This document shows positions 6,925-41,977 of a DNA stretch of 64,000 nt, piece after piece; the first letter of the stretch is position 1; each line of letters begins with the position of its first letter. The translations under genes and the position numbers were made by a program. This stretch comes from Beverwykella pulmonaria (taxonomy: Eukaryota > Ascomycota > Dothideomycetes > Pleosporales > Melanommataceae). The stretch lies in contig BCHH01000004.1 of assembly GCA_001599595.1 (NCBI GenBank), positions 2,178,702-2,242,701 of the forward strand, written 5' to 3'. The notes beneath the pieces were generated by a model. It was not told the origin of the DNA and made no database searches. It worked only from the letters and a program-made list of their open reading frames with translations.

Positions 6925-9606
6925 TTAAACAAACTCTGGCATCTCCATATGGGCCTTGGGCGTAGCAAATCTCACCAACTTGGCATAATATTCCAACAGC
7001 GAAAACAATTCCGGGCTCACATTTGCATGCGCAGCCTTCAACTTCTTCCTCTCCCCAATCCATCTCTCCTCCTCACCCGCCAGCATCTTCCTCACCGCCC
7101 GATTGTACTCCATCGCGTGCTTGATATCTTTTCTCTCCGCGCTCTTCGCCTTGATCCGCACGTAGCCTGTGAGATTGAGCCATAACGCTATATCGAGAAA
7201 CGTCTCTGTAGGGTATCCCTTGGGCAAGTCCATTGCGGATATGGAGTCATGCCGTTCGGCGATGCCAGTGCGGCCCACTTCGTCCAGGTATGTAAGCCGG
7301 ACTTTTTTGTCGGTTTCTTCGAGACGGAGCGCGTACTCCATGCACCACGCGAGATCTTCCCAGACGGGGAAAACTTGGGTTTGGCCTTTTTGTTGGGGCC
7401 GCAGCGTTTTGAGAGCCCAGAGGCTGGCGTTGGCCCAGTATTCGTCTGCGTTGAAGGCGTCACCTCCCGTGGCTTGCCGGATTTTCTCGAGCACGGGGCG
7501 CGATTGCACAAAGTCTTTGATGCTGCGATGCGAGTAGTTTATCTTGAGACGCCGGGGGTCCGCTACGCTGCTGTCGGGTTCTTCTTCGGCGTCAGTAGAG
7601 GGGGCGGAGCCCTCGAAGACGGTGAGAAAGTTCTTGCATTGCGTCTTGAGCAGGGCGAGCATGTCTTCGAGTCTTTTAGTTAACTCTGTGGGACGCAGGG
7701 GGCGGATTTCGGCGGAGAGGCTTGAGTTGGTGTGCGGATCGTTGGCAAAGGAGAGGGCAAGGAGGTCGGGGTACCCATGAGCGTCCACGAGACGGAAGAG
7801 CTGCGAGGCTTGTTGTAGGTCGACTTTATCGGTTCCGAGATCCTCGAAGATATATGCGAGGAGAGGGTCCAACTCGGACTGGAGCGCCCACACGCGTGCT
7901 TGTAACGACACCACGTCGTCGGATTCGCTTGCGCCCTGGACGAGGAAGTCCGTGGCCAGTGTTGCCCACAAGAAGACGCCGGATGCCTTCTCGACAATAT
8001 CGCCAATGAGATTATGCTTCAGTGTGTCGTCGGTCTCGTAACTACATATCTTGACCAGATGCTCTTCTGTGTGAACAACATGGGACACAAATAACCTGAT
8101 GTCGTCGCTCATCATGGTATCAAGCATGAGGCTTGGTCGCTTTTCGAACGCATTCTGGAACCCTGGCATCGGACGACTGGAGGTGCATATCTTGACGTTG
8201 TCGCGCTTCGTTGCACTCATCAGCAGATCGACAACTGCTTCTGGGTACCCGCCCAACTCATCGAGCCCGTCGATCAAGAAGAAGAACTTCTTCGTCACAT
8301 CTGAGATCATGAGTTCGAAGCCGCGCCGAAGATCTGGAAATGTGAAGTCGTGCATGCCGCCGCCATACGAGGTGAATTGATTCCACCGGTCCGCAAAGAG
8401 CCATTGGATTATGCCTGGATCCTGTTCGAGCGGGCCATATATCATGTCTTGAAGTGATTCGTAAAGCAAAGATCTCAATAGACCGGTGCTTGACATTTGC
8501 AGATCAAGACCGGAGCTCCAGAAGAAGAATGCAGCATTGATGCCGGGCGATGCTCCTGACCAAGCTTCTAAGCTTGGGAAAAGCCGAGAGTTGCGGAACA
8601 GGTGCTTCATAAGCACGCTTTTGCCCGAACCTGGCTTCCCTATGCAAACATGTTTAGCAAAAGCGAAGATGCAAAAGTTAAATCAGTTCTTACCAGTTAT
8701 CCAGAACAGATTTTGTCCGCTCTTGTCGCCCAACCAATCCAAAAAGGCGCTCACCTGCTGCTGACCATCTTCGTAACCGGGGGGAGACTCAAACATCCAT
8801 TCAAAGGTGCCATCATGTGCTGTAGGAATGCTATGGACGCGGTCATCCAAGGTCGCGAAATGTAATTTGGCAAATACTTCATGACAGAAATGTGCTTCGT
8901 TCTCGACATTGATCAAGGAATCGACCTTCTTTGAGAACTCCTCGACGTGCTTTTTGTTCTTTGGTTTCCAGTCGTTGGAATGAATTGCATCCATTGCCTC
9001 GTTCTGCCATCTTTCCCAATGGTGGATTTGGGAGTCGTCTGCACTAAAGACAGGGAGGCCTGTCTCTGCCGACTGGTCGAGGTATGCCCTGCATCCAATT
9101 AAGCAGATGATTTTCCCCCCCACATTTCTGGTACGAACTGCTTACCGAAGGGCAACCAGGAGAGCCATATCGACCTCCTTTCGTACATTCTTGAGCTTCT
9201 TCTTGAGCCCCGTGATTTCCTTCTTCTTCCATACTGTGAGTAGTGCTTCACGGCAGGTCTGCCATTTCGGATCTGAGAATGAGCCCCTCGCCTGTGCTTG
9301 CAGAATGGCATCAATTAGCGTCTGGGTCAGGAGCTTCGTGTCATCGCTGAGTTTGAGCAATTGTTCCGCGGCCTCACTAAGTTTCGGCCGCTTAGGATCC
9401 GCACTCAATTTCTTCAAATCATTGTGATCTATATTCAACGAAAGGCGAAAAAGGTTCTTGGCAACATCTTGCAGTATAGTGTGGTTCTCCACGGCGGCAC
9501 CATCAGTCGGTTGGTAGATCTTGTGGTCCTTGGAGAGAATCTTAACGGAGAAGTCGACAATTTGGATGATGCTCGATGAGAGGCCGACGGCGGGAATGGG
9601 TTTCAT
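6925..9606 (-). CDS. NACHT-type P-loop NTPase (NLR-like)
   Basis: Complement of 9146-9606, 8694-9088 and 6925-8639, with introns of 57 and 54 nt (GTAAG donors), total 856 aa. I chose ATG 9606 because the protein then begins MKPIPAVGLSSSIIQIVDFS, the typical start of fungal NACHT proteins; an ATG 38 codons upstream is in frame but looks like leader. An N-terminal helical region covers about 1-190. Walker A is GKPGSGKSV at about 285-293, created by the second splice junction, and Walker B is FFFLIDGLDEL at about 404-414. The C-terminal half is alpha-helical, as in NACHT (NPHP3_N-like) plus DUF7791-type fungal proteins, with no visible WD, ankyrin or TPR repeats. Such proteins are candidates for non-self recognition and incompatibility cell death. 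Effector type is not identifiable. Confidence 0.9.
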
Positions 9607-16267: not shown

Positions 16268-16273
16268 GACTTT

Positions 16274-16398
16274 TACGGAAAGCGGATATGAGCAAACCGG
16301 CAACAATTCAAGCGAGGAAAATCAAAACTCAAAACTCAAAACGCACAATGCAAAATCAACAAATACATGCACACCTAAAAATTATTTCAATAATTAAA
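16274..16398 (+). repeat. Left terminal inverted repeat
   Basis: About 125 bp. The first 89 bp are identical to the reverse complement of the right end, including a small internal direct repeat (CAAAACTCAAAACTCAAAAC). The inner 35 bp differ mainly by C/T and G/A transitions, as RIP would leave. Confidence 0.93.
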
Positions 16399-16848
16399 TC
16401 ATATTAAGTATAAATCAAGTAGACAATTAAAACATAAATAATAATGCTCCAACACTTGTACACTAAACTTAAAAGAACTAATACTGTGGCTAATACCGTG
16501 TCAAATAGACCACATGTTTGTAAATAAGTTTGACAATATGGAGCGAGGTTTAAAGCTAGAATATCTTATGGTGTCCTTGCATTTGTAATGTTTAAAAGTA
16601 AGTAGACCATTATATTTAGACTATGAAAAACTGTAAGTAGTGCTGAATCAACCAATTCCTCAGCTCTACCTGTCTAATACCTGCCTAATGCCTGTCCCCA
16701 AAGTCAGAAACTAGAACTAGTTGTATACTTAGATATCTCCTCGCAGACACTGATATATAGCCCAATACTTACTAACACCTATATTGCTAGTTGAGGATTG
16801 CGCCTTATTTATCTACTAATGATGCTTTGAGCGGTGATTGTGGATGAT

Positions 16849-17506
16849 CTAGACATAGTCGCCAAGAATATTAGCAATCTAGAAAGCATGTTGGAAGTCC
16901 TTCTGCTGGATGGTAACCTGCTTGGTGTGAATAGCAGACAAGTTGCAAGCTAAAGTTATTAGAACAATACTAGATTAATACTGAAGATGATATTAGCATA
17001 CCTGTCAAGCATGTAGTTATAAATGCCTCAGCTGCCTCTTGCAAAGTAGTAAGTGCATTTAATTGGAACTGTTTAATAAGTTTTTCGCCTTTAGTATTTT
17101 GGAAATCCTCTAGAATTTCACAAACAAGGCAAATAAATTAGGTTTTTGGGATAAGAGTGCTAATACATTACTAGTAGTGTTAGATCTCACAGAGAGCAGA
17201 GCCTAATACTAGTATTAGTCAAAAATTTAGATGATACTATACATAGAACTTACAACCAGGCCTTGCTTTCACCTTCTTAGGTCTACTAGTGGTAGCTCCA
17301 CAGTAGACAGGCGCTTTGACAGCATTCTTATTATACAAAATGTTCTTGCGTTTAGCAGGCTTTTTAGGTGCAGACTTGCGCGGTGATTTGGTAGCAATCT
17401 TCCTGCTGAAGGCTAAAACAGCTATTAGCAAATAGCTAATACTAGTACTAATACTAAGATTACTAGTTGCTCCAAGTGGGCGATTGGGAGGGCGAGTTCT
17501 TGCCAT
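16849..17506 (-). pseudogene. Histone H3-like gene 1 (RIP-damaged)
   Basis: Complement of 17464-17506, 17254-17412, 17002-17202 and 16849-16949; all three introns are GT-AG and phase-consistent, giving about 167 codons. The tail starts MARTRPPNRPLGA and continues RKIATKSPRKSAP, matching canonical H3 around K18-P30, but K4 is R and K9 is P. After a tail insert, RPGCSALCEI matches the alphaN region (RPGTVALREI). The histone fold follows: LVCEILEDF, a loop 1 about six residues longer than canonical, ALTTLQEAAEAF (helix 2), NLSAIHTKQVTI and KDF (helix 3). In-frame stops cluster in the alphaN helix (three), before FICLVCEI (one) and near the C-terminus (one), mostly at Gln positions. No normal product is expected now. 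Confidence 0.85.
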
Positions 17507-18217
17507 GATAGTGTAGATATAATAGACGGTAATAGTAATTCAGTTGCAATGAACAGGAGTTGACAATTAACGCAAAAAGTAAGTGGTAGAGGAAGAAGGT
17601 TGGTTGCTGAAGAGAAGATATAAAGGTTTCAGAATAGTAAAAAGTTAGGTAGGTGAAGGTGAAGGTGAAGGTGAGATAACAGGTGAAGGTAGAAAAAAAT
17701 GCGAGAAATTCTTAACTAATACCTAGTCTAATACTATTAGTCCTAATTCTCCGCTCATTGCAAAGCAAAGCCAATTGTAATAAAGCCAGAAAAAACAAAA
17801 TCTAACAATTAGTTAGAGATTACAAACTAAGAATATATTCCAAAGCTACTCACTTGCATAAAGACTAATACCCAGCCTAATACTTGTATTATTAGCAGAT
17901 TCTAACTGGCAACGTCACGCGGTTTTAGAGAGGTCTTAATAATAGCTAGAAGTTAAGTTTTGGTAATAAAGCGCAAAGCACTTTCTCTGTTTGCCTTTTA
18001 CTTAAAATTTTGCTAGGGTAAATTATTAAGTTAGCTTCACACAAACACACTAAAACTCCATAACACCTGCACTTAATTCAACCTGGCCACAATTACTAGC
18101 TAATTAGCATAATACTCAACTAATACTTGCCAATACCACACGCGTGCATTATAACTAATCAAAAATAGAAGAAACAAGCCAGCAAATACTCTACAAATCC
18201 AAATACCATCAAAAACA

Positions 18218-19733
18218 ATGCCATTCGCGCAAAGAAAACTAGTGAAGACTTCTTAGTTATAAGGGGAAAAAACGCTAATAACACAGTAAGACCCACAGCA
18301 GAATAGCTAATACTTAGACTAATGCTGTAAAGGCGTCTTTAAAGCTATAGAAGAACAAGTTCAAGCCGCGTATCCAACATCTACTAGATGCAGAATCCAA
18401 CAAATTAAAACGCAACTAGCTAGAGAAGGACCTAAGGGATTAGTGCAAGAATGCAGCCCTTAATACTAGGTATAAGATAAGTATTAGGTTAGTATTAGGC
18501 AGAGCTAACAGTATACAGGGCGAAGCAAAACTTGCTCTAGACTTAGCAAGCAATAGCGCGCACTGGCAACCCTAAATCTCATTACCTATCCCTAGACACT
18601 CTGTTTAAAGCACAGACGCGTGTCTGGCTTCTTAACAATAAGTTTATGCCGCCCTAGCATATTATTGATAGCGCAACGGCTACTATTGCTGTCAGCTCTC
18701 TACCAAGCAGTTAAGAGGAAGATAGCGTCTAAAAAAGCACTAGAAACACAAACTAGGACCAAGATGAACAAGACTTACGCACAGAGAAGGAGTTGTGGGC
18801 CAACCTTAGATACTAGCTGTCTATTAAGCAATACTAGAACAGCCAGCTTAATATAGTAGTTTGGAAATTAAGTGTTATACGCACTTAAGGCTTAAGGGCA
18901 TTTCTACTGCGCATAACACTTGACCAACTTAAGGCAAGTAAATTCTAGATAGCCTAATACTAAGACTAATACTTAGCAGGAATATATAAACTGGCTTAAC
19001 CTAAATATCCTGTCTATAGTAGTTGAAATGCTTAGCAAGCTCAAGCAGCGCTTTAAACAGGTACGTTGAGCATTTGTCTAGGTATTGGGCCATTGCTAAC
19101 AATTCCTAGATTGTAGCCGTCCAAAAAGCATATAAAAAGACACAAGTTGCGTATAAGAACGATATCGCGATTGACAGCAACTTAGGTGTACCAATACTGC
19201 TATTCTTAATGCTATTTACTAGTCCTGAGCGCGTCCTACTATCTCTACTCTACTAAGCTTAACGTGGCGGAACATTCTAGGGTTCTAAGTTCAAGCTTTT
19301 TGACAACAATTAGCCGTCTAAACTTCCTAGTGTCTATAAACTACAGACTATTAAGGACTACAGAAGGGACTTTCCACTTACAGCTATTAACATAACTAGG
19401 GCTGCAGACCTGCTAGACAATATTGTTAAGCTATTGCCAAAAGAGAACAATGAGTTAGACGAAATAGCTAAAAACAAACCTGCCGTGGAAGATGATTAAA
19501 TAGAAGGAGTTTTGGAGGATAAAGATGCTATAGATGTTAATCTAATAGAAGCTAGGGAAGACGATTAGGATATAGAGATGCCCAACATTGATGAATTCCT
19601 AAATTTGGGGTTACTCTGGCAAGATAATAAGAGGCAGAGCAGTATGTATGCTATAGATGACGTGGAGAACGTATTAGATAATGAATGGGAGTCTTAGGGT
19701 GAGGAGACCCAAGCGCCTAAGCAGCTGAACTAA
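18218..19733 (+). pseudogene. Element gene A, unknown (RIP-damaged)
   Basis: Starts at ATG 18218. A first coding block covers about 18333-18465, an intron lies near 18467-18493, and long blocks run 18494-18950 and about 18970-19733. Frames are free of random stops apart from TAG/TAA at likely Gln codons. Readable pieces include ARTGNPKSHYLSLDTLF, KAQTRVWLLNNKFMPP, ELWANLRY, VPILLFLMLFTSPERVLL and an acidic C-terminus (DEFLNLGLLWQD). Estimated length is 420-480 aa. At least one frame change near 19060 may be an intron or an indel. I recognise no domain. Divergently oriented from H3-like gene 1 with 711 bp between. Confidence 0.55.
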
Positions 19734-20363
19734 AGGTATTAGGTGGTATTAGGCGTATGGGCTAAGATAGGGAAAGGTTATTTACTAGAGTTAGACGGGT
19801 TTAAACTATAGAGAAGGTTTAGTATTAGGCTAGTATTAGTCTGCCTAGAAACTGCATGTAATTAACTGCAATACATAATAATTAAAGAAAGAATACAGCA
19901 CTTGCAGAAATAAGTTGGCGCCCGCGCCAATTCTTATCTGCCTCTATAGCTGTTAATAACAACAATTAATGCTTTTAGAGGCTCCTTGTAGCTATCCTAA
20001 GTACCTAGAAAGGGCCTTGGTTTCTCTCTTAGCTGTTTGCTTCGCAATTACTTAACGCGATATAAATATGCGTCCAACACCCAACCTATTAAAAAAAAAG
20101 AGGAACAACAAAAAAACTACTAGACTATAAACAAGACAATAATTAATTTATTTATTCTGTGTACATATATATAGCCCTTTCTTTAAAATATATACAACAA
20201 AATAGAACTAAACTGCTATTAAACACATTTCCTACATTTTTGTTTAGTGTATTGCTGCTTTGGACATCACACAGCTGTAAGTTGCCCCCTTACCCTCCTA
20301 TTTCTGTTTCTACCCTTTGCTACACCCTACAACTACTATAATAGACTGTGGAGTGCAAGAAAA

Positions 20364-21885
20364 GACCTAAGTTAAAACCTAGTTTATCAACTCTCTATTG
20401 TCTTTCTCTCTTTCTTTCTTCTCTCCCTTGTCTTCCTTTATTATATTTTCCTTAAAGGTATTATTGTGAGCCTTAACGTTGTTTAATTTGTTCTCCCCAA
20501 ATTCCTTCCTTGATATCTTAGTGCTGTACCCCTTATTAATCTTGTATTAAACAGTAAGGTAGTCTATATGTTCAATCTCAATCTAAGGAATAAGATTAGC
20601 AGGCTAGGTATCCTTATTGTAAAGCATACTAAGCATGTAGTAGGCATCCTGACTAGAGTGTATGCTAATACTAAAAGGATGCTTAATATTGTTTAAGGTC
20701 TATAAATTATAGATGCCTGGAAGAGGTAGATATCTGTGAATACTAGCCAACTAGATTTTGCAATTCTTAAGTTTGCTAATTAATTAGCTCTAAGCAACAA
20801 GACCTATTATAGCTCTCTTAAGACAAGTAAACTAGAGCGTAAAGGGAATAGTTGGCACTAGCTCCTAGTGAGAAGTATTAGTTCCTAAAGCTTTAGCAAG
20901 GCGACGGACCTTAGAACAAATAATATCTACAACTTCTCCCTAAGAGATGTTAGTATTAGGCTAATATCACATACTAATACTAAACATACCTAATTAAATT
21001 TGCTTCTAAGCAGTGGCTTGTCTTTCCTATTTATACTTGAGTAGAATGACAATACTTTGTCTGTTGATTTCTTGCAAGTCATACCCCTGAGATATTGCTA
21101 CGCGTGGTATTAGTACAGGTATTAGCCAACGCAGTGTAAATGTTTATACCTCAAACTTATTCTGGCTTAAGCTTGTAATAAGTAAAGCAATATCCTTGAA
21201 GTAAAGTCTGCGGAACTTCTTGATAGCAGACTTAAGTGCTGTAGTCTATGCAATCTAAACTGTCTTCTACTAATTATAGAGCATGACTAGTGCAGTATCC
21301 TCAAAGAATTGTTGTGGTTTTTCTTTAAGGAAACCAACAAGATGCAGCAACGCAGTCAGATCATTTGCAGGCAAGTCTACCTCTTGTTCAACATCTCTTG
21401 CATCTACACTGTTACAACTAGTAGTGCCATAGTAGTTACCTAGATCTAACTGTGCAATGATATTGTTCTTAGTGGGTACAGTTATATCTGGGTATTAATT
21501 TCTAACCTTCTGCGTCTAATAGATGCCCTTCTTAAAGCTACAAATTAAACATTAGCAGATGCGCTAATACCATACTAATACCACGTACAAGATAGGAATT
21601 TTTTCCTGAGCAGCCTGGAGCAACAGTTCCTTTTCTTAGAGAGCTTGCGCTGGTTTGTCCATTTAATTAAAGGCTACTTGTTCTTCTGGCTAAGCTAACA
21701 GCTTTTTCTTGTATTTTAAAATCTAAGTGTTTGTTGAATTCTTGGCCTAGATAATAAATTTCTTATTATCCTGCGCCTTCTAATACGCATTCTAATTCTT
21801 AACTGTGTTTGAATTTGTTGAATATGACTTTTTAGGGTTTTTGGGTGAGGTAACATCTAGCTTTGCTTTGTTAGAAAGAGACTCT
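20364..21885 (-). pseudogene. Element gene B, unknown (RIP-damaged)
   Basis: Reading the minus strand, protein-like frames run from a basic, Lys/Asn-rich start (SLSNKAKLDVTSPKNPKKSY) through introns near 21560-21585, 21092-21148 and 20940-20990 to a Lys-rich end (VKAHN...KEDKGEKKE). Between them are blocks such as LTALLHLVGFLKEKPQQFFE, AIKKFRRLYFKDIALLITSL, QEINRQSIVILLKYK, VVDIICSKVRRLAKALG and DAYYMLSMLYNKDT, with stops only where Gln is plausible. Size is roughly 430-480 aa, predicted mainly helical. No family is recognised. Exact ends are uncertain; a further upstream exon near 22000-22100 is possible. Confidence 0.5.
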
Positions 21886-22369
21886 ATGGTATTAGCAGAG
21901 TATTAGTTAAATATAGCAGACAATTTTAGTTGTTAGGATAGTAGCAGTAGTAATACAACTAAGGGTTGAAGGTCAAGATTAACGTGCTATAACTGTAACA
22001 CTTGGCAAGAAACCAAAGACTTGAATGCGTGAATGCGTGTATTAGGCTAAGAGTATTTGTTAACGCACAACTTAGGACAGTAGAAACCGTACTAATTAGA
22101 CGTTTAGTAAGAAAGTTGTTGTGTTTTAAGGTTATTTAATTGTTAGTGTTTATTATGTTTTGTTGTAGTAAAAAGTTGAGACAGTGCGCTAATTATGTAA
22201 TCAAATCACGTGCTAATTTAGTTTATAATTTTCTATAAGTAATATTTAACTACTACAGCTACTCCTACAACAGCAACAATTTCAACCTTTGTGCGTACAG
22301 TAATTTACAATTTAGTTAGTACTCTAGTATACTACATCGGGAATTCGGTTAAATTTTCCAAACCATGTA

Positions 22370-22595
22370 CTAACCATGGTTAACCACAGGTTACCAGACA
22401 AACCATGCAAACCATACAAATCGTACAAACCTTGTACTGTACCCTCCGAACAACAAGCTCGGCAACTAACCTAACCTGGAATGTACACGAATCAGACACC
22501 TGACGCACGAATCAGACCCCTGACGCACGAATCAGACCCCTGACGCACGAATCAGACCCCTAACGCACGAACCAGACCCCTAACGCACAAACCAT
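22370..22595. repeat. Central repeat block: AACCATGGTT-rich segment and 20-bp tandem repeat
   Basis: At 22370-22440 the palindromic word AACCATGGTT and related ACCATGCAAACCATAC-type words recur. At 22486-22595 a 20-bp unit, CACGAATCAGACCCCTGACG, is repeated five times plus a partial copy, decaying progressively. A related AACCATGGTTAACCATGGTT block lies just right of the gap at 23396-23430. It sits in the middle of the element between divergent gene groups. Confidence 0.85.
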
Positions 22596-22726
22596 ACTGA
22601 GTACTTATTGAACACGTAGGACCTCTGGTTGAGCTCCTTCCGCAACGTCTTGTAATATTGTACCTGAGATTGTATCTCTAGCCTTCAATAGCTGATTAAG
22701 CCCTAATCACAGACTACTAATAGCCT

Positions 22727-23341
22727 NNNNNNNNNNNNNNNNNNNNNNNNNNNNNNNNNNNNNNNNNNNNNNNNNNNNNNNNNNNNNNNNNNNNNNNNNN
22801 NNNNNNNNNNNNNNNNNNNNNNNNNNNNNNNNNNNNNNNNNNNNNNNNNNNNNNNNNNNNNNNNNNNNNNNNNNNNNNNNNNNNNNNNNNNNNNNNNNNN
22901 NNNNNNNNNNNNNNNNNNNNNNNNNNNNNNNNNNNNNNNNNNNNNNNNNNNNNNNNNNNNNNNNNNNNNNNNNNNNNNNNNNNNNNNNNNNNNNNNNNNN
23001 NNNNNNNNNNNNNNNNNNNNNNNNNNNNNNNNNNNNNNNNNNNNNNNNNNNNNNNNNNNNNNNNNNNNNNNNNNNNNNNNNNNNNNNNNNNNNNNNNNNN
23101 NNNNNNNNNNNNNNNNNNNNNNNNNNNNNNNNNNNNNNNNNNNNNNNNNNNNNNNNNNNNNNNNNNNNNNNNNNNNNNNNNNNNNNNNNNNNNNNNNNNN
23201 NNNNNNNNNNNNNNNNNNNNNNNNNNNNNNNNNNNNNNNNNNNNNNNNNNNNNNNNNNNNNNNNNNNNNNNNNNNNNNNNNNNNNNNNNNNNNNNNNNNN
23301 NNNNNNNNNNNNNNNNNNNNNNNNNNNNNNNNNNNNNNNNN
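22727..23341. other. Assembly gap (615 N)
   Basis: A run of unresolved bases inside the large DNA element, immediately after a tandem-repeat block, suggesting that a longer repeat array collapsed in assembly. The real length is unknown. Confidence 1.
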
Positions 23342-23740
23342 CGCCAAATGAGGCTCTCGTAATCTCACTAACCACCAAATCTCACTAACCTAGCTAACCA
23401 TGGTTAACCATGGTTAACCACAGTAACCAGATGCTAATTTACATTTTGCCGATGTAATACTATACTGCGCAATGGCTAATACCCTTCTAGCAGCTGGCGC
23501 ACAGCAATTTTACTATTGTGTTAGCCTATCTTACAGTCCTCAATTATTAAAACGTGACCTATCTGCTGTCGCGATAGTGTATTCGCGACTAGTTTAATTA
23601 TGCGTTTACTTCTATGCAATTTAGCACCTGCTAACTATGCAAACAGCTATATTTAAGGTTTTAAACCATTTCTGTACTACATTTGCACCGCATCTTTACA
23701 TTACTACGCTGCTGGCCTAATACTGTCTAATACTGCTATT

Positions 23741-24553
23741 ATGGCTCTAACAAAGCAATTTATGCGCAAAGATTACTTTGAGAAGTAGAGGATTGCTGCA
23801 AAAGCAGCAAAAGCACCCCGCAAGGAACCTGCAAAGCTAGCTAGAAAAACACCTTGCAAGCAACCTCCACCTGGAGAACAACAAGTTAGTTCTAAGATCT
23901 CTGGCAAAGGTACATTAAAGGAAGAGGTTGAAGAGGCTGCTGGAAAAGGTAAGTAGTATAAGTATTAGTATTAGTATTGTTTTGTACTAACGTATACAGC
24001 ACTTGGCAAGAGACAAAGGGAAGCTCGCAACAGAAACAAGAGGTTGAAAGTCCTAGCAAGTAACAAGATTAATTGTGCACCTGTCTATAATTGCGTTGAA
24101 AAGAGTATACCTAAGCTTGGGAGGAATGTTCAACGTACTAAGTATTTAAGTAAGTTAGTATCTAATATCCTGTTATTACCTACTTATCTGTGTTAGCAGC
24201 TGCGCTTCAAGAAATTAAGTTCTACTAAATAAGTACTAGCTTCTTAATCCTATTTGTACCCTTTTAGAGACTTGTTCAAGAAATTAGTTGCAGTGTGTCT
24301 AGACATAAGGATCTCTGCTTCTAACAGTCTGCACTGCATGCTCTACAGGAAGCTGCCAAGTCTTTCCTTATTCAACTATTTGAGAGTAAGTTTAACAGTA
24401 TTTGTATATAGAATTGGTCTAACATCTATTCTAGACGCAAACCTTGCAGCAATTCACGCTAAGCGTATCACCATTATGCAAAAGGACATTAACCTTACTC
24501 TAAGAATTAGAAAAAACATGCACAAAATGGTTAGTTACCTTTTTAAAGCATAA
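23741..24553 (+). pseudogene. Histone H3-like gene 2 (RIP-damaged)
   Basis: Exons 23741-23948, 24000-24149, 24197-24385 and 24435-24553, phase-consistent, about 221 codons. The long basic tail begins MALTKQFMRKDYF (compare H3 MARTKQTARK) and contains KAPRKEPAKLARKTP. The last tail part shares an APVY word with gene 1. The histone fold is clear: AALQEIKFY then a stop at the YQ position, ISTSFLILFVPF then a stop at the FQ position, RLVQEI, loop 1 two residues longer than canonical, ALHALQEAAKSF, NLAAIHAKRITIMQKDI and a basic C-terminus. The longer loop 1 and TIMQKDI resemble centromeric H3 more than canonical H3. Four in-frame stops replace expected Gln codons. A real histone-fold relic, but orthology to CenH3 is not proven. 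Confidence 0.87.
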
Positions 24554-25353
24554 CTCTTTTAAGCTCTTTAAGGCTATTCTATTTTAATACATAATAGGCA
24601 CGGATTTATAGGGTAAAAGTTAGGTGCCTTATTTAGACGGATATTTCTGTTGAGTTTTTGGGAGGGTTTAATTAGTTTAGATGCTTAAGATATCTATTAG
24701 TCTTTTCTCTACAGTAGCCTACTAAACTACTTTAATACAAAACTTAATACAATGTGCCGTCTACTAAGGTGTAATAGAGGGTGGAATTTAGAAACTAGAG
24801 GGTAGATGCAACTTACAGCCGTGCTATGTTGTGGTGGAGTAAAGGTGTAATATAGAAAATTAAGAGGGTAGAAGGTGACTTGTGGCCATGCAACGTCTAA
24901 AGCAGCAATATACTAGGGGAGGAGGATCTAAAGGTCTTAGGTAACATTTATAAAGATAATAAGGTTTGGCAGTAGACTGTTGCAATTTTGTTATATCTAG
25001 CTACCAAAGGAAAGAAAGAGATGTGTGATAAACAAGAGACCTAGCTACAAACCCTATTTTGGGAAGAGCTCTCTACTATAGCGCACTATCTCAGCCTCCT
25101 TTTCCTCTTGCCTTTTCTGTGTTACTTGCTTACTATTAATGCGCATCTTTCCCGTCCTCTTGTAGGTAACTACTTCTTCTGTGCCAGCACTTGCACGAGC
25201 TAGCCTACGCCTTGGGAGGCAATAAGGGACTACCTTTGCAGCTACATTGTCTCTATTGCCTTCCTCCTCTAACTCTAGTCCTATTTTACTGTTAGAGTCT
25301 GTATTAGCCTTAGGAGTCTGCTGTAGCTGTGGACTCTTAACCTAAGAAACTCC
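24554..25353. other. Intergenic spacer inside the element
   Basis: About 800 bp between the 3' ends of H3-like gene 2 and gene C. Reading frames are short and no block resembles protein. A serine-rich minus-strand stretch near 25080-25330 could be an extension of gene C. Confidence 0.45.
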
Positions 25354-26687
25354 CTACTTCCCCTTCCCTTTCCCCTTCCCCTTATTTAAAGCTTTTAGTG
25401 TTGAATATTTGTCAACTGTTAAATCTAATTCTTTAATCTCTTTGCTATTTTTATTATCATCTCCACTGTTAGTTGTTGCGAAGTTGTCCTTATTGTTAGT
25501 GGTATTAGTTACTAGTATTAGTCTAGAAGTTCTCTTTCTTCCAGTCACTAACGTACAATTTGGCATCTAGGCTTAGTTCTTTACATATGGCGAGATTGCC
25601 TCTTTCTTAATACTAGGCTCCTTCTTAATAGCTTTCTTAGCTGCAGATACTGGCTTAGCCCTTTTAGCTAACAGGGTGACAGTAGGAGAAGCTATTCTAG
25701 CTACCCTGTAACTAATCCGCGTTACGTCCTCCTTGTCTTCCTAAACAAATAGTTTAAACAAGACAACAATTGTATATGTCCCTTTCCCATCTCTTGGGAA
25801 CATGTTAGTTCCTAGCATCTTGTATAGAGTTGTATTGTGGGTGTATTTGGCCACAATATATGTTGGTGACAACCCCTTCTTCCCTGCAGTTGCAAGGTTA
25901 AGGGTGCAATTCTTAATATTGCCCAGCTACACAAGTCCTACATTAGCAAGTAGGGTGTTCCTAATAAAGGTTAATTCATCTTTAATATCTTTGTCTTAGA
26001 GGAGGCAACTAAACTTATCTAGAGATAGTATTAGCCTAGTATTAGTCCAACGCCAATTAGTATTAGCCTAGGACATAATAGACACTTACAACTCTTAACG
26101 CATCTCTTAAACACAGGCGCGCCACTATTAACTAGTAGAACCTAGTTAACATTAAAGCAGGCCACCTTAATCTAAGTTTGTTTGTAGAATTCTACAGGAG
26201 GTAATAGATGTGTCTTTATCTTGTACGCAGCAAGTTTGCTTAAGAATGTCTTCGTGCTAGCTTTCTTAACAGTTTTTTAGGATGCTAGATGTCCATCTAG
26301 GGATTAGTAGAGGGCGTTAGATACTGCAATGCGGGCTTGTGCGTTACCTGCTACAGCTAATGCAATCTGTGCATGTGCACAATCTGCGTTAGACCTGTTA
26401 GGTGCAAGTTCTCCTTCCTATTTTCTAGACTGTGTTTGTGATCCTACAATGTACATACCTTAGGAGTTTTTTGGCAATAATAGATTAACTGTTTTAGTAT
26501 TAGTAATAATAGAAGCAGCTCTTTCATTCTGCGGCTGTAGTTGTGGTCCTACTCTAGATGCTGCTGGTGGCACTGTAACACTATCCTATTTATTATTCTC
26601 TTGACCGCACGCAGAACAACGTTGATATACAATGTTCATATTTTTATAATTATGCCCTAGCGTAGGGCAGAACAAAGTAAGGGGCAT
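25354..26687 (-). pseudogene. Element gene C, unknown, cysteine-pair N-terminus (RIP-damaged)
   Basis: Complement of 26090-26687 joined to 25354-26018; the intron 26019-26089 (GTAAGT donor) contains three CTAATACTA-type words. About 420 codons. It begins MPLTLFCPTLGHNYKNM and has QRCSACGQE, so a small zinc-binding knuckle is possible. The middle includes ALAVAGNAQARIAVSNAL and KTVKKASTKTFLSKLAAYKI, followed by a globular part (NIKNCTLNLATAGKKG, IVAKYTHNTTLYKMLGTNM, YTIVVLFKLFV). A basic C-terminus ends in GKGKGKGK. In-frame stops fall at likely Gln codons. No known family recognised. Confidence 0.5.
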
Positions 26688-26810
26688 AGTTGGTATGGCA
26701 AAACAGCAAGATAAAACTAATAATAGTAAAAGCTATTGTAAGACAAGAAACAAAAGGGTAAATATTTAATATTGCAGGTTGTGGGTTTTACCCTTGCCTA
26801 GCGCTCCTTG

Positions 26811-28579
26811 TTACCCTTGCTTACTAACATTATCTGTTTTGTAGAAATAAAAATGCTCTAAGCCTATATCAGATGGCAGTTTAAGGTCACTATCTACAAT
26901 AAACTTAGTGTTGTCTGTTGAAAGTATAGGCTTTTCTACACCTAGAACCTCTGTACTATCATCTACTACACCTAGCAGCTAGATACTATTAGCATGTAAC
27001 AAACAAAATATAATAAGCACTTACTTTCCACTCCTATACACTAGTTGGCTTGTCTAGTAACCCTAGTATTAGTTGTTTCCCAATTACTATGTGCTCAGAA
27101 ATTCTCTTACGCATCTCTAAATAGATGTGTTTAAATAGCTTAGCACGCTAAGTTGGAAACTCCATCTTAGCATTCTGTGGGTTAAAGCCAAGCTCCTGCA
27201 GTTGGGTGTTGCACTAGGCTTGCGTTTCTTCTGGCAGATACTTATCTAAATTATATTCTAGAACTTTCTGTCTAATAGAGTTATATTGCTCCTGCCTAAG
27301 TAATATAGCTTCCTCCTTTGCAGGATAGTCTGGGGCACTGTACAATACCCTAGGCTTCCCAACAATAATATTAGGCTAATTCTTCTGCTTTTAAATATAG
27401 TGGGCGTTCTAGATGTTAACATACTCTGCAATTTCTCTTTAGATAATGTCTATGTACACTGCAAACATAGCCACCTAATCTGCAATATTGGCCTTTACAA
27501 ATAGACTATTGTCTAATAATCCTCTAAAGTACATCTGTTATGTGTTAATGGTAATACTAGAATATGTGCGAATTAGGGTATTAGTTTGGTATTAGTCCTA
27601 GGACAGGAGAAAAACATGCGCTTACCCTCCACTAAAAGAGGAGTCCTCTTGATATCTGCTGCTACTAGGATTTAATTCTCTAATTTGCTGTACTAGTACT
27701 ATACATGTAGCAGTCCTTTATCTTAAGGTCCTTGTTCTTAAAGGCTGCCTGTGAGAGTTGTAGCTAGCTAAAGGCAAGAATGTAGGTTTCTTTGCCACAA
27801 TCTAATTAAATAAAGCAAGGGTGTTGGCCAGTAGCCCTAACGTGCTTTAAATACTAATTTCCAACACTAATAGCAGTGTTACCTGATATTCTAATATTTA
27901 CCTATAGGATTTTCCAAGAGAAGGCATTAATGCTAGTGTATATTTTAAAGCTGTATGGCTGCAGCTTTAAATAACTGTTAATAGACCACAGCCAATTTGG
28001 ACCTAGAACAATGTACTCCCCCTTTCTTCTTTGGGCGTCCTTGTTGCGGCGCCTAACACCTTTAGGGTTTGCGAGCTTGTATTCCCTAAACAGTGCGTCT
28101 CTTGCAAATATAAAGCCTTTCTGCTTTGCCTAAATATAAAGCATCTGTTTACTAAGTCTGTCTAATACACCTCTTTTTAATAATGCTTTTACGTATTGCC
28201 TGATTGAGTTCTCCATGCGCATACAAGCGTTAACCCTACAAGCTTAACAAACTAACCCCAATTCTTTCCGCAAGCGACGAATCTTGTACTTATTAATTAA
28301 TATCCTATCCTCAGCTCTTAGCATCTTAACTATCTCCTTGTTAGTGTTGTTCCCTACAAAGAATAGCGCAATAATACAGTACTTTATTTGCAGCGTTACG
28401 TTAGGTGACATCTTCTAGGAGACCCCCCACTCTTTAAACTATTCACGAATTTTATGCTCTAATGGTGAGTACCCTATCTCCTCAATGCAATACGCTATCA
28501 GATCTTTGTACGTCGCACCTTCTTCACGGTGCCTTGTAAGAAACTCCTGGAAGATATCTGGGTTGATTGGTGGGCGCCC
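26811..28579 (-). pseudogene. DDE integrase-core transposase (RIP-damaged)
   Basis: Complement of 27626-28579, 27025-27534 and 26811-26978, phase-consistent, at least 544 codons; the first exon start is unresolved. The N-terminus GRPPINPDIF...YKDLIAYCIEEIG and the central GPNWLWSINSY, ILxVNIRISGNTAISV, LDCGKE and STSTANxRIKS match the fungal 'integrase core domain' family, whose usual catalytic forms are IDGY, SDRG and RIE. Here the first Asp reads Asn and the Glu reads Lys, changes expected from G-to-A RIP. More than ten stops occur, nearly all at Gln or Trp positions (for example a TAGTAG where WW is expected). The C-terminal exons continue MYFRGLLDNSLFVKANIAD and QKNQPNIIVGKPRVLYS as in the family. 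It is the presumed mobilising enzyme, now dead. Confidence 0.85.
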
Positions 28580-28660
28580 TATACATATTTGTTATTTAAA
28601 GACTAATACCTTTCTCTAGAACTAATACCGGCCATGTTTTCCCAAATTATCAAGTATTGT

Positions 28661-28787
28661 TTTAATTATTGAAATTATTTGCAGGTGCGCGCATGTGCTT
28701 GTTGATTTTGCATTGTGCGTTTTGAGTTTTGAGTTTTGATTTTCCTCGCTTGAATTGTTGCCGGTTTGCTCATATCCGCTTTCCGTA
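28661..28787 (-). repeat. Right terminal inverted repeat
   Basis: Reverse complement of the left end; the outermost 89 bp are identical and the inner part diverges by transitions. Followed directly by the GACTTT target duplication. Confidence 0.93.
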
Positions 28788-28846
28788 GACTTTCCTTTTC
28801 AACCAACCCTCGAGTTCAATGCACCGACTTTAGGAAAGAGACAGGG

Positions 28847-29730: not shown

Positions 29731-29878
29731 AGGATCCTCAAGCCCTTGTACAGACTAGCAGAGGCTGGAACACACTGGTATGTGACCTATTCAAAGCTTG
29801 TCTCGACGGTGTTTTGAGTAGGTCACATACCAGTGTGTTCCAGCCTCTGCTAGTCTGTACAAGGGCTTGAGGATCCTC
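29730..29878. repeat. Inverted repeat / hairpin, 66-bp arms
   Basis: Arms 29730-29795 and 29813-29878 are complementary at 65 of 66 positions with a 17-nt spacer, and the outer end is itself the palindrome GAGGATCCTC. It lies exactly where the pol region of the retrotransposon was lost, so it probably arose with the deletion by template switching. Confidence 0.95.
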
Positions 29879-29967
29879 ATGGGCGATCTCCTTCAGAAGG
29901 TGGGCAAAGACAAGGCGGGTGAGTGGGGTTGCTGATTGTTTGAAGCGCCTTGGAATCCATCTCTGCC

Positions 29968-35741: not shown

Positions 35742-37818
35742 TCACTTCCCCGACGCATAAAACATTCCCTGCGGCCCATTCGGTGCCATAGCAAACGGCC
35801 TCGGTTGCACTTTTTCCTTCTTCTTCTCCGGTTTCTCCGCCCTGACAAATACCTCACCGACCGCATCGCCCTCGTCCTTCTTGCACACCCATTTCCCGAT
35901 CCCCAACTCCTTGGGCGCCTGTCTAACACCTCTGCCCCCACCACCTACAATGAGGTTTCCGGGCCGATACTTCGGATCCGCCTCCATTCTCCTAATGACG
36001 GAAGAGTGGATAATAGCGTTGTCGGGAATGTCGCGCACCTCACCCTTTGGCAACGGCCACGTGATGGATTTCCACATTCCGTCTTCTTGCAGATCCATGC
36101 GCCTGAAGGGTAGGTACTCCATGATATTCCAGGATATGACGGAAAGGCCCGAGACGCCGTTCTTGAACTGCAGCACATCGTGGATCTTGCCCTGGGTTGA
36201 GGCTGAGTGGAGGTGTGTGTGGAATTTGGAATGTAGGTGGTTATGGTGGTGGTAGTGGGATTGGGAGGTATTGGATTCACCCTTTTCGCTATTTTCGTTG
36301 ACTTGGGCGAGTGGGGATGCGGTATGGCGCTCAGGGCTGGGAGACACGGGGTCGACTTCGATGGTGGGGACGGGTACTATTGTCTGGCGGCGAGATTCGG
36401 GGGTTGGTTTGAGTGTTTCTGTGTAACTGCAGTTCAGAGCGCGCAGCTTGATGTCGTCGAATGAGAGACCTGCGCGTTGGGCTTCGCGAACCATCCAGAC
36501 AAGAGGGACGTGGCTAAGGGCAGCGTCTTCGCCAGGGCTCAAGGGCCAACCTCCACCGATATCAGCATGGCAGCCCGGAAACCAGACTTCTTCTATATCT
36601 TGCTCCCCATCCTCATCCTCGTCCGACTCGGCATAATGCTGAACAGAATCTAAGGAAATATTGGACATGGACGTAGCAGGCGAGATTCCACCGGTGTATT
36701 CAGATGAGACGGAGAACCCAGGGCTCAAATTACGTACACCGGAAGTCTCTGAGCGAGACCGATATCGTTCCGGGACTGCCAAAGTATCTCGGCGGCCTTG
36801 TGGCATTGAGGGCTTTCGTCCTCGATGGTGTTCTTCATCTTGTTCGGTCCGGTGAGCCGTATGATGGCGGTGCTCCTGACGACGTTTATACTGTTGCGAT
36901 CGATTGGGTTTGTCTTGCGAAATGAGATCCTGCCGGAACTTGGCTCGGCGTTCATCGATCGCTACAGCGTGGCGAATGACCTTAGCAGAACTTCGAGCTG
37001 TGTAGGGAAATTTGCTTCGTTGCATCCATGCATTCTCGAATCGAGGAACGGAGTTCACGGTGTCGAACAGACCCAGGAAGCGAATAGGACGGACAGGACG
37101 ACTGAATGTTTCTCGGAAGGCGCACATGAATTCGAGTAGGAACTTTTTCTGCTTCTTCTCCTCGGCGTTTCGTTCTTGTCGACATTGCCACTTCTGAAAT
37201 GTCTTCCATGCAAAGCGACACATTTCCTCGTTTCCAGCCTACTTTGGTGAGTATTATGTCTTCACGAGCGGGAGGGTACTCACAGATAGGAGGCCAACGT
37301 GATCCAGCATCTCTGCCAGAAATCGCGCTGTATATGCGCCTCGAGAGAAGCCAAAGAGGTAGATGTCGTCTCCGGGGAGATAGTATCTCATCAGAAACTT
37401 GTAACCCCCCATTACGTGGGCATCGAATGAAGTGCCTGTGATATGTCAATGAAGTGCTTTCACCAAAAAGCTAGAGATACACACCCACGGCGCTGTCTTT
37501 AGCCTTCATATACCAAGATCGAAGCCTGTCAAGTCTGCTGGTATGCGACAGAGAGCTTACAGTCACATACGTCCCTATTCCGGGCTGATAGTAGTGAAAC
37601 TGCGTATCATCGCTCCGGTCCAGCATGCGGTAGATCTTAAGGATGTTAGAGTCGGAGTCAGTACCCGAGAACTTGTTTCCGGTGCCATCGAAGCAGAGGA
37701 TGAACTTCTTCTTGGGTCTGTGGGAGTGCGCTTGCTCCATCCTGTCTTGATTGAGATTCAGATGTTCCCGAGGTAAGATGTTAAGGGGAGGTGGATAGTT
37801 GGAGAATTGCTGAGCCAT
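35742..37818 (-). CDS. DUF2235 (Tle1-like) alpha/beta hydrolase
   Basis: Complement of 37485-37818, 37284-37435 and 35742-37238, introns 49 and 45 nt, 660 aa. The N-terminal strand [14 protein letters not shown] and the nucleophile motif [10 protein letters not shown] at about 140-149 define the DUF2235 family; [13 protein letters not shown] supplies the conserved acid and metal-side region, and HAVAIDE is the usual mid-domain motif. A long charged, His-rich insertion (about 290-480) separates conserved blocks. Bacterial relatives are phospholipase effectors; fungal ones are mostly uncharacterised and probably cytosolic lipases or peptidoglycan-like hydrolases. Start ATG 37818 is the first in frame. 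Confidence 0.9.
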
Positions 37819-40020
37819 CTGCTTTGCTTGGTGTATATAGGATCAGCCATGCGAGCTAAATGAGATCGGCACAATTAGGAGGAATTAGGACGAAAGAAAA
37901 ACAAGATATCAGTAAGTGGCGCACAGACAGATCGTCCACAAGTACCGATGGGGCTATACCTGCGGGGTGCCCGAACCTACTTCCAGTACTTACCTATGCA
38001 TGTGTTTCCTTGTACAGTTAGGATATGAGATCAACGATCCCATCTGGTCTTACTGTTTACGAATTAGTCCATACTTTCTTGAGGTGTGAGATTTAAGCAC
38101 AATCGTTTGCCCATCCATAGAATGGACCGCGAACCCACTGCATCTTTTAGAATGCCATAGGGGCCAATGACCTCATGGCGATGGGCGCACAATATGCGGC
38201 CCCGCCCTTGCGGAACTATGCGTGCCCCGAAGCCAACCTCTGCGTTAAAATGACTCAATTGGTCCTGGCTGCCAATGATGTGGTCTAGTCTAAATCATGA
38301 ACCGATTTCAGCAGGCTAGGAGGATTGAATAGCCACGAATGGCGTGTATTACTTTGTGGTGCCGACGCCACATACGTGTAGTCCGGTAGTTATGTATGAA
38401 GCCGAAGATAGATTGGAGGATTGGCGACGCCATGCGTTGTTGAGAATAAGCATTCGTGATCCTAGGCCGAGCTATGGGTCCGTGGGCACATATCGGGCCG
38501 TAACAGCTAGCTCAAGGCTAGTTGCTCCAACCTCTTTTTGTCTCTGGTCTTCTTTTTTCTCGTCTGCCACAACGAGCCGCAACGTCTACTTGTGGCCTTC
38601 GATTACCGCTTCTCGCCAATTCACATCTACAAGAGACTGGTTCAATTTGATGGTTGTCAACTGAGCGGGTCATTCACCCTTAGCGACGCTTTATATTGCT
38701 GCGTCTTGCATGCACAACCCACTGCATAGGCGAAAAGCGCAGGCCATGACTGCCCGCAGTACAAGCCACAAGTTTTGGAATTCGATCTCCTTTAGCTCCA
38801 ATTCTCCAAGCTGGAAGCTTCGGCAGCATGAAAAGACGCTAACTCACTCACGTCGCGTAAAATGACCGTGCTCGTCAATTGATCTTCCGGAACACGGCTG
38901 GTGCCGCCCTTCCCGATCAAGAATTCCCATTGCACAATCCAACACCGGTTTTCTAGCGACAGATCGTGATCACCCTTGGCATGCAAGTTCACATGTCTTC
39001 AAGATGCAAAGCTGCACTGTGTAACGAACCATAGCGCAAACAGTCGATGGTGAGCCAATCGTGTCATACTTACTCCTCTCAGCCAGCCACTGCCAATTGA
39101 GATCACTTCGACTTTGCCATTGAGGGTTACATATATTTCTTCTGCTATTCTTTACTTACTGATGGCGTGGATTGGAAAATTCATTGATGATACTCTCCCC
39201 GTCTACGCGAATATCGTAAGTGTGTGTTGTGAGACGAATGACGTTATGAACTTCGCACCCAACGTTCACTCATTAACAGAAGAATGATATCCGCTAGCAT
39301 GGTTAGTTTAGTGCTAGAAGTTAAGTTAGTCCTCGTTCTCTTAGACAAGAGTTGTCATATTGTTAATCTACATGTGATCATCGCTGTATCGATTCAAAGC
39401 CCCAGAAATCAGTGACACCCAGTCGTGACAAATCCTTTAACTTTTAGCTTCTCCGCCGTATAAACATATATCCCCCAGCAATGAGGCTGCACAATTTGAT
39501 ATTAAATGCATTTGATGACGATGAAGTGCCATGGAGATGTTTGGTATGTAGACGGGAGAGAAAGAGATGCCCAAGAAGCGAAGATGAGGGCAAGGCTTTT
39601 CTTGTAGCGACCTCCAAGTCGAATTGGAGCGCATCCTCTACATTAAGCAAATTGCTGCAGATAATTTCTTGAAGAATTCCGCGCGACTTTCACGATCGTT
39701 CCCGTTAGTTAGATGGTTTGTCAGACGTCGAAGTCGGGCTTAGTCTTACAGAGTAGCAACTGCCTTTCCGTCCGCCGAATGATCGTAATACTTCTCACAT
39801 AACTTTTCCTTCTTCTGCTGGACCCAGCCAACCTTCACACGGCACATTCTTAAAAGCTTTGAGAGCTAATAGAAGATCAATGGGGAAACCCTTCGGTATC
39901 TCTTTGGAAGCTAAATTGGCAACATGCAAGGGAAGAGGAGAAAAGGAAATCATACAACAAACACGCCCAGGATTAACCTAGATTCTCTGTTCAAATACAA
40001 TAGCTTCCTGTCCCTAAAAA
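37819..40020. other. Intergenic, gene-poor
   Basis: No complete gene is supported. A minus-strand stretch about 38840-38992 reads as a protein-like exon with a GTGAGT donor, but I could not link it to a gene. The remainder shows nothing. Confidence 0.45.
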
Positions 40021-40330
40021 GACGCAAACAGGACACTACCAGCTAAAGCTAGGAAAGGGCTTCTTCAGGCAAATTTCTAAGGCAATTGGCAAAGATGACA
40101 AGGGAGAATATTTTGGCAACTGCAAGGCGCTGCAGACGCATAGGCACCTTCTCCTACACTGTAAACACTGCAAAAAAGAAAGAGTAAAGGCAGCAAAGGC
40201 GCCAGTAACTCGCACACTTATGCTACCTAGGCTCTTTAATACTGCAAAAGGAAGGGCAGCTCTAACAGGCTTCCTACAAGAAACCTAAATTGCTAAAACA
40301 AGATGGCTGCTAGCAGCAGGAGCTTTTTAA
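40021..40330 (+). pseudogene. Relic of a LINE (Tad-type) ORF2 C-terminus
   Basis: A plus-strand frame of about 100 codons, with one TAA at a likely Gln, reads a C-terminal segment of a non-LTR retrotransposon polyprotein: a basic block, then CKALQTHRHLLLHCKHCKKE (the zinc-knuckle-like C..H..C region after RNase H), then LFNTAKGRAALTGFL and IAKTRWLL, the usual ending. There is no upstream RT, so it is a 5'-truncated or isolated fragment. Family name is inferred from pattern only. Confidence 0.65.
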
Positions 40331-40724
40331 GAGCCTACCACCGCGACACAAATAACATAACAAAATACAAAAACAGAACAGATACAAGACAAGAGTAATA
40401 GTGCTGTAGCGCTCTAGCAAAGAGGGATTGGCAGAGTGAGCGCAGTGCTTCATGGCTAGTGGCTGCATAAGCAACATTGTATTTGTCTAGAAATAGATAG
40501 TGTCAATGTAAACGATTTATATATATATGTTTTGTGTTAAATACTTTCCAAGGTTGTTAACATATCCGTTCGCGATACGCTGAATACGGCAACCCGCTGT
40601 TGGGACCGTTTCGACCGTTCTGATCCGTTCTGATCCGTTGCGGCTGTTGGGGATTCATGCAATGTGTTGGGGATACGTTCAGGACTACAAAAAGTTTTGC
40701 TGATATACATTCCAAGTCAGTTCG

Positions 40725-40860
40725 TTCCTGAGCTTGTTGTTTGGAGGGCACTGTATCGTAGAGCACAGTACTTGTTAGATTCGTCGTTCGGATGGTACTG
40801 TTTTATAGAGTACAGTACTGCCAGACTCGTCGTTCGGAGGGTACTGTAGAAATGCAGTAT
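40725..40860. repeat. Direct repeats of about 58 bp (CGTCGTTCGGAGGGTACTGT)
   Basis: Two to three imperfect copies of a unit containing TCGTCGTTCGGAGGGTACTG and AGAGTACAGTACT run head to tail. A diverged further copy lies at about 42485-42545, beyond the cysteine-rich protein gene. Confidence 0.7.
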
Positions 40861-41006
40861 CCTTGACGGTGTTACTCCATGAGAGTGCCTTTTAGGTTGC
40901 AGTGGTGGAGTGGTATCGTGCTCCGCTCCTGACATGTACGTACCATTGCAAATATATCCATATTCATACTTGTAAGAGTGTTTCGTACTAATAGGCTTGA
41001 TTGTAA

Positions 41007-41038
41007 TGACGAGCTCGGTCTTCACTACCGTGGATGCG
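41007..41038 (+). repeat. Direct repeat copy 1 flanking the secreted-protein gene
   Basis: GACGAGCTCGGTCTTCACTA followed by CCGTGGATGCGG; the second copy at 42329-42360 differs at two positions. No other gene lies between the copies except the small secreted protein. Confidence 0.8.
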
Positions 41039-41593
41039 GGGAGTCAATGAAAGGATAAGTAGGCTCTATTTTAGCTACACTAAGATGAAGAGCGAAGAGG
41101 TACTCGGGGGAATCGATCCTATATACAGTGGGGTACGGTCCAGGCGTAGGCTGACCGAGCATATTCTGAGAGTATGGCATGGTTGAACTGAGCGCATGCC
41201 ACTATCACATCTGACATGTGTTCATATGACGTGTGGTCGAACTGAAGAGCAGCACCGTTACATTGGTAATAAATTATAGGGTAGATAAGAGTGTATTAAA
41301 GGAGAGACGAATCACTACCAACGTAACTTGGCAGCGGGGGAACACTAATAGACTAATCGCATGACACCTAAGCCATATTGCTTCCGTGCAGGCCAGAACC
41401 GGCCTTACAACAACCGTATAGGTACCAGTCACTTTGATCCTACCCTACTTTTATTCCTAATCCCCTCCCTCGAATTACAAGGACTTTTAATATATTCGAC
41501 TGTGGAGAGGCCTAGTTTAAGCTTTGGAAGGCCTGAAACATATTATAAATATGTCTTATTCTTTCTCAATATTATCAGTTGTACATACCTTAT

Positions 41594-41854: not shown

Positions 41855-41968
41855 AATGATATCAGAAATGTAATGATGTTTAGGGCTCTTAGATGTAATA
41901 TAGGTAGGATAGAAAAATGTTGATCTCCAAGTAGTTTAGTACTGCAGCGAGAGCAGTTAAGTAGGGGC

Positions 41969-41977
41969 TATATATAT
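41969..41977 (-). promoter_or_regulatory. Putative TATA box of the secreted-protein gene
   Basis: CTATATATATGG (plus strand) lies 115-123 bp upstream of the ATG, a plausible distance for a fungal core promoter. No other element identified. Confidence 0.4.

Follow-up and report, generated by a model that had tools for sequence, protein, structure and literature searches.

Histone H3-like genes have been reported as passengers of fungal DNA transposons, which have so far been read mainly as cases of gene capture. A hAT element of Pyrenophora tritici-repentis carries the gene H3L (Manning et al. 2013, PMC3538342), and hAT elements with H3-like genes occur in Pseudocercospora, Cercospora and Sphaerulina (Dhillon et al. 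2019, PMC6710886). We found that a 64,000-nt stretch of contig BCHH01000004.1 of Beverwykella pulmonaria (the window) contains a single 12.5-kb cut-and-paste DNA transposon at positions 16274-28787, which carries two H3-like genes, H3a and H3b, and is very probably of the IS3EU type. A third H3-like gene, H3c, lies in a different repeat of the same genome. An earlier reading of the window from its sequence alone knew of no comparable system; this did not hold, since H3-carrying DNA transposons have been published and the repeat R25 (PMC3017866) matches both H3 and the transposon TDD4.

The Pyrenophora element resembles ours in being a DNA transposon with terminal inverted repeats (TIRs), whose H3L fits neither H3 nor CenH3 and has tail insertions, but it differs in its hAT transposase, its length of ~5.6 kb, its single H3L gene and its almost identical copies (PMC3538342). 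The Pseudocercospora fijiensis hAT element is likewise a DNA transposon, ~9.5 kb long, and has undergone repeat-induced point mutation (RIP); it carries one H3-like gene or two, of which the second has an insertion of 16 residues. Its TIR is 20 bp and its target-site duplication (TSD) 8 bp, compared with 97 nt and 6 bp here, and its H3-like sequences were reported to be intron-free and read as capture of a host H3 transcript, whereas introns are present here (PMC6710886). In Stagonospora nodorum, R25 (Hane and Oliver 2010; its table row gives 23 and 3320, which we read as copies and length) is also a RIPed repeat matching histone H3 and the integrase-type TDD4. Unlike our element, it was re-classed by its authors as presumably an endogenous gene region, and terms for TIRs or target sites are absent from the article (PMC3017866). 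Judged from the descriptions rather than from aligned sequences, R25 is perhaps kin of the element reported here, which would offer a transposon reading for an old puzzle.

Our element has its ends, 6-bp TSD, DDE transposase and possession of extra genes in common with fungal IS3EU elements, among them Styx and those that bear TET/JBP, but their cargo is TET/JBP, alpha-kinase or other genes (PMC12730594, PMC10045372, PMC10853768). The TET/JBP cargo of some of them has been read as anti-silencing (PMC12730594). The word histone stands at four places in the same article, where the subject is histone modification, histone H1 or the SET methyltransferases that oomycete transposons carry, and at none of them H3 cargo. 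In the open-licence literature, searched partly among the best 8-20 matches, no description of an H3-bearing IS3EU element was found. As far as searched, new features are a complete IS3EU carrier of H3 genes, two intron positions common with H3c of a different repeat and not with host H3, a lengthened loop 1, and changes of the K9-G12 tail segment that RIP cannot explain.

Results

The ends and duplications of the element are as follows.
16268-16273, no strand: left TSD, GACTTT
16274-16370, plus strand: left TIR, first letters TACGG; a weaker second inverted stretch extends to 16401
28691-28787, minus strand: right TIR, last letters CCGTA
28788-28793, no strand: right TSD, GACTTT

The TIR arms are 97 nt each and 98% complementary, and the 6-bp duplication is perfect on both sides, in agreement with the sequence-only reading of a unit bounded by TIRs and GACTTT. 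At 1-kb resolution, GC content is 0.34-0.42 inside the element (excluding two 1-kb blocks that hold an N gap) versus 0.51 just to the left and 0.48 just to the right, and the TpA/ApT index is 1.51 within it versus 0.60 and 0.69 in the flanks. The 12.5-kb element is inactivated by RIP.

When the left end was searched against the host genome, 33 matches were obtained, and seven TIR pairs, including that of the window, were inspected. Perfect 6-bp duplications flank five of them (GACTTT, TCTAAG, CTTTCG, TGGATG and TACTCG); the remaining two, a 9-kb relative on C1 and a 1.8-kb relative on C2, have no duplication and one incomplete end each. Full-length copies are represented by two of the seven pairs, the window copy and C16:813496-825338, which has its own perfect TSD (TCTAAG) and whose right end bears a 19-bp tandem repeat of the TIR tip. 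Both H3a and H3b are present in each of these two copies. Because the C16 copy combines the two genes with a different TSD, they must have moved as cargo, as had been proposed, and the sole other full copy found thus provides no refutation. The shorter copies are too small to hold H3 genes, and the 9-kb C1 relative, which has only terminal and a few short stretches in common with the element, gave no match to the Histone profile PF00125. Over 11,406 aligned sites (leaving out two insertions each present in one copy only), the window and C16 copies differ by 490 transitions, 324 of them in CpA context, 3 transversions and 0 gaps. Such a pattern is the mark of RIP and speaks for recent joint mobility: the two copies go back to almost the same source sequence, and the RIP damage came after they had inserted.

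The transposase gene lies next to the right TIR.
27704-28648, minus strand: transposase, HTH_21 followed by an rva_4 integrase core, in one frame

Both domain matches (HTH_21, E 0.015; rva_4, PF24764, E 0.018) fall below the curated cut-offs, but they lie in order in one frame, and the frame is matched by P0030, an intact 302-aa metagenomic protein, at 3.9e-61 with 47% identity over 77% (1/317 candidates passing). The presence of a DDE integrase beside the H3 genes, as had been noticed, is supported. By eye, the putative catalytic positions are N, D and K in the window frame versus D, D and E in P0030; the N and K are consistent with G-to-A changes by RIP. A scan of viral_contigs with P0030 yielded no relative, and an AlphaFold model of this protein (mean predicted local distance difference test score, pLDDT, 35.5) was not used.

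With regard to superfamily, fungal IS3EU elements have TAYGG..CCRTA ends (stated for rust IS3EU) and 6-bp TSDs (PMC12730594, PMC10045372). Our element ends in TACGG..CCGTA, its duplications are 6 bp, perfect in five of the seven TIR pairs, and its 97-nt TIRs exceed 30 bp, as expected of IS3EU. Ginger2/TDD elements have TSDs of 4 or 5 bp (PMC2836005, PMC10045372). Ginger2 and Polinton/Maverick were both weighed on account of the integrase and TIRs. Termini, TSD length and the IS3-type helix-turn-helix match favor IS3EU over both. A hAT assignment was rejected as the TSD is 6 bp and not 8; also, no hAT domain was detected in six frames with stops as X, a result that carries little weight in RIPed DNA. 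Ends, TSD and domain content, rather than a tree, give good support to IS3EU membership and to a DDE transposase of the integrase type.

The two H3-like genes were modeled as follows.
16849-17506, minus strand: H3a, histone H3-like gene, exons 17506-17464, 17412-17254, 17202-17002 and 16949-16849
23741-24553, plus strand: H3b, histone H3-like gene, exons 23741-23948, 24000-24149, 24197-24385 and 24435-24553, the last with the stop codon at 24551-24553

H3b, which has a long N-terminal region, was found by PF00125 in raw six-frame DNA exon by exon (E 1.2e-8 and 5.1e-5), in both full copies and despite stops. For H3a, Pfam found nothing in the raw six frames, and the gene came to light through three other H3-like loci that are ~70% identical to it at the DNA level. 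The profile check that had been suggested for these two intervals gave significant Histone matches for both when exons were joined with stops as X (H3a, E 1.7e-14; H3b, E 1.2e-24). Within the histone fold, identity to host H3 is 40/90 (44%) for H3a, 47/92 (51%) for H3b and 55/90 for H3c; as a yardstick, host H3 and PDB H3 share 83/95. The best PDB match of H3a is Schizosaccharomyces pombe CenH3 Cnp1 (5.3e-16), gap-free through loop 1. H3b matches ordinary H3 chains best (1e-22), against which its loop 1 has two inserted residues. In the protein database, a CenH3 of the fungus Phlyctema is the top match of H3b, with 45% identity over 65%, and 29 of 398 candidates passed, none of them close. Counted by eye, loop 1 exceeds that of H3 by six residues in H3a and by two in each of H3b and H3c. 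A lengthened loop 1 is a mark of CenH3; the H3 variants P0006 and P0009, which are not named CenH3, likewise have a longer one, so that this feature alone does not make a CenH3. In a profile search with the three H3s (7,986 candidates scored), the best 120 were by name plant, algal and animal H3-domain proteins, with no recognisable transposon relative among them.

The readings of H3a and H3b contain no frameshift. All stops in their window copies are TAA or TAG, as expected from RIP of CAA and CAG; the C16 copy of H3b additionally has two TGA stops. Two other signals were not used: the count of internal stops in H3a (5, versus 5 and 14 in the other frames) gave no separation, and an APVY stretch common to H3a and H3b carried little weight, as 667 of 20,000 shuffles scored equally well.

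As had been claimed, both genes contain several introns: three GT..AG introns are readable in each (51, 51 and 52 nt in H3a; 51, 47 and 49 nt in H3b). Splice sites were picked with histone similarity as a guide, and the evidence from intron positions is therefore good but not independent. H3a, H3b and H3c share two fold introns, both in phase 1, located at the T of RPG^T and at E^D. In host H3, introns interrupt the codons of R8 and of the Q that precedes SKD, and the host CenH3-like gene, for which only the fold was worked out, has a fold intron after FQRV. The view that the two genes are not one duplicated host H3 thus stands insofar as their fold introns are unlike those of host H3 and the host CenH3-like gene; however, the two positions common to H3a and H3b hint at a common ancestor. 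H3c resides in a repeat of 1,439 bp with four copies.
L045:4006-5444, H3c repeat
C2:22613-24051, H3c repeat
C8:193932-195370, H3c repeat
C4:1790611-1792049, H3c repeat

Three PF00125 matches with stops (C2, C16:75 kb and C8) represent this repeat, and a fourth copy was missed by that search. At the DNA level, it has only the H3 stretch (~147 bp at 70%) and one 23-bp match in common with the element. The repeat has a sharp 3' end (..GCCAGCCTA) and ragged 5' ends, and contains a widespread ~180-bp repeat (matches at 911-1091).

The suggested H3/CenH3 phylogeny was drawn from 15 and from 23 rows. In the 15-row tree H3b falls among CenH3s with support of 89/99, although the program still draws the fork as open, and the 23-row histone tree leaves its place undecided. 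In approximately unbiased (AU) tests, monophyly of H3a, H3b and H3c (p-AU 0.278), grouping of H3a with H3b (0.236) and grouping of all three with CenH3s (0.409) were neither shown nor rejected.

The N-terminal tails are altered in different ways. A1 and T3 are kept in H3a, H3b and H3c, as is R8 outside RIP-changed copies, while the K9-S10-T11-G12 motif reads P-L-G-A in H3a, K-D-Y-F in H3b (K9 kept; S10D, T11Y, G12F) and P-G-R-G in H3c. The H3a tail is without K4, K9 and K14. There is no C-to-T or G-to-A route from any canonical codon to the residues at K9, S10, T11 and G12 of H3a, at S10, T11 and G12 of H3b, or at K9, S10 and T11 of H3c; therefore RIP did not make these changes. The host H3 tail is canonical. 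Domain searches of the host gave a single Pre-SET match and DNA-methylase matches at two loci, putative counterparts of DIM-5, DIM-2 and RID; at one DNA-methylase locus two stops fall inside the matched stretch, perhaps an intron.

Since RIP makes transitions only, transversions were compared between codon position 3 and positions 1+2 (one-sided Fisher P, uncorrected, in ten pairwise, non-independent comparisons). An excess at position 3 was observed in all ten. For H3b, P was 0.0081 against host H3, 0.0045 against H3c and 0.004 against host CenH3; for H3c, 0.052 against host H3 and 0.016 against host CenH3; for H3a, 0.047 against host H3, 0.038 against host CenH3, 0.09 against H3b and 0.12 against H3c. 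The yardstick, host H3 against host CenH3, gave 0.009. These patterns support past constraint on H3b, are suggestive for H3c and are marginal for H3a.

Discussion

In Neurospora, ectopic H3 with K9L or K9R beside wild-type H3 leads to loss of DNA methylation, and DIM-5 requires H3 residues R8-G12 in vitro (PMC3248561). Among the roles proposed in the sequence-only reading, escape from silencing appears to be the most likely. The H3 variants would replace or dilute host H3 in nucleosomes; nucleosomes with variant tails would be poor substrates for the H3K9 methyltransferase DIM-5/KMT1; and silencing through H3K9me3, HP1 and DNA methylation could be weakened, locally or dominantly, long enough for transposition. 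The same kind of H3 gene might be passed among different transposons, in line with a proposal made for the TET/JBP genes that transposons bear. On the strength of tail anatomy and Neurospora genetics, we tentatively suggest that the altered H3s escape or poison H3K9-methylation and DNA-methylation silencing, at somewhat below even chances. Recurrence supports this suggestion, as a third H3-like gene occurs in a different four-copy repeat with two fold introns at the same positions.

Several observations weigh against such a role. Any protection was incomplete, given that the elements did undergo RIP. H3b retains K9, H3c retains G12 and K14, and the tail changes could represent drift in a tail that was not in use. 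For H3a the transversion test gives weak results (P 0.038-0.12 in its four comparisons), and the set of ten is uncorrected and non-independent. In addition, the host genome contains eight transposase matches, of which two are the full copies and six are more distant or partial, and no PF00125 match was found near any of these six (on the same contig, the closest lies 48 kb away) in a six-frame search that also missed H3a and one H3c copy. H3 cargo therefore does not appear general among these elements in the host, within the limits that RIP damage sets on detection.

A serious rival, and the main one, is passive transduplication, in which H3 genes were captured by accident and drifted unused; we consider it possible but doubtful. 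It is close to the published reading of the hAT carriers, as capture was invoked for P. fijiensis and P. tritici-repentis and possible drift for Pyrenophora H3L (PMC6710886, PMC3538342), and it would suit the very divergent H3a with its marginal constraint signal as well as the six transposases with no histone match nearby. However, accidental capture would have to place two different H3s in one element, keep readings free of frameshifts at 44% and 51% fold identity to host H3, and produce the transversion pattern of H3b and H3c. The RIP-like stops of the window copy also argue against decay of this kind, although the C16 copy of H3b has its two TGA stops, and so do fold intron positions unlike those of host H3 and the occurrence of H3 cargo in hAT, IS3EU and a third repeat.

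It was also proposed that the element might mark itself for segregation. In this case, a CENP-A-like loop 1 would engage the CenH3 chaperone or centromeric chromatin and aid retention or placement of the element. The longer loop 1 of all three proteins gives the proposal weak support, together with the gap-free alignment of H3a to Cnp1, the CenH3 as best protein match of H3b and the position of H3b in the 15-row tree, but P0006 and P0009 have this loop without being named CenH3, the larger tree does not place H3b, and its best PDB matches are ordinary H3. We regard CenH3 mimicry as improbable. Similarly improbable is a role as transposition cofactor, with H3-like proteins packaging the excised element or helping the integrase choose chromatin: both genes travel in one unit with the transposase, but perfect 6-bp duplications likewise flank three short copies that share these ends, though such copies were possibly served in trans.

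A complete IS3EU carrier with two divergent, intron-bearing H3s, altered in the tail motif read by DIM-5, and H3c elsewhere, makes recurrent and possibly selected histone cargo plausible. A broader version, that filamentous fungi harbor a lineage of H3 variants dedicated to transposons, handed from one superfamily to another and acting as decoy histones, whose nucleosomes are closed to the H3K9 methyltransferase and defeat heterochromatin, DNA methylation and part of RIP, is rather unlikely as a whole; if true, it would represent counter-defence via nucleosome substitution instead of an enzyme. The idea is directly testable in Neurospora, given the known disruption of DNA methylation there by H3 altered at K9.

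Other features of the element and window

Additional features located between the TIRs are listed below.
18217-19760, plus strand: possible RIP-damaged gene, frames read by eye, exon limits undefined
20900-21883, minus strand: RIP-damaged frame, two genome matches, which are the two full copies
22335-23454, no strand: nested insertion, outside the element proper, no counterpart in the C16 copy
25060-25950, minus strand: lysine-rich RIP-damaged frame, matching the two full copies and, short and weak, one place elsewhere

Pfam searches, whose matches were confined to Histone, assigned no domain to the possible gene at 18217-19760. The nested insertion has CATCGG..CCGATG ends and a TA duplication, which by eye suggest a Tc1/mariner-like element; it contains a 615-nt N gap (22727-23341) and 20-bp tandem repeats at ~22486-22600. 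Opposite window position ~18145, the C16 copy has an insertion of ~0.4 kb that resembles a solo long terminal repeat: its ends are TGTAACG..CGTTACA, and ACACG flanks it left and right.

Outside the element, a ~60-base stretch is repeated in inverted orientation just to the right (29735-29880, by eye). An open reading frame (ORF) at 6928-8616 contains NPHP3_N and DUF7791, as in an NLR-like protein, and a minus-strand ORF at 35745-37223 has a strong Tle1-like phospholipase domain (PF09994, E 6.8e-43). A second AT-richer stretch at 39000-44000 (GC 0.42-0.44, TpA/ApT 1.12) is perhaps another RIPed repeat. Two neighbouring ORFs at 48161-52070, each with ABC transporter membrane and ATPase domains, may be one gene.

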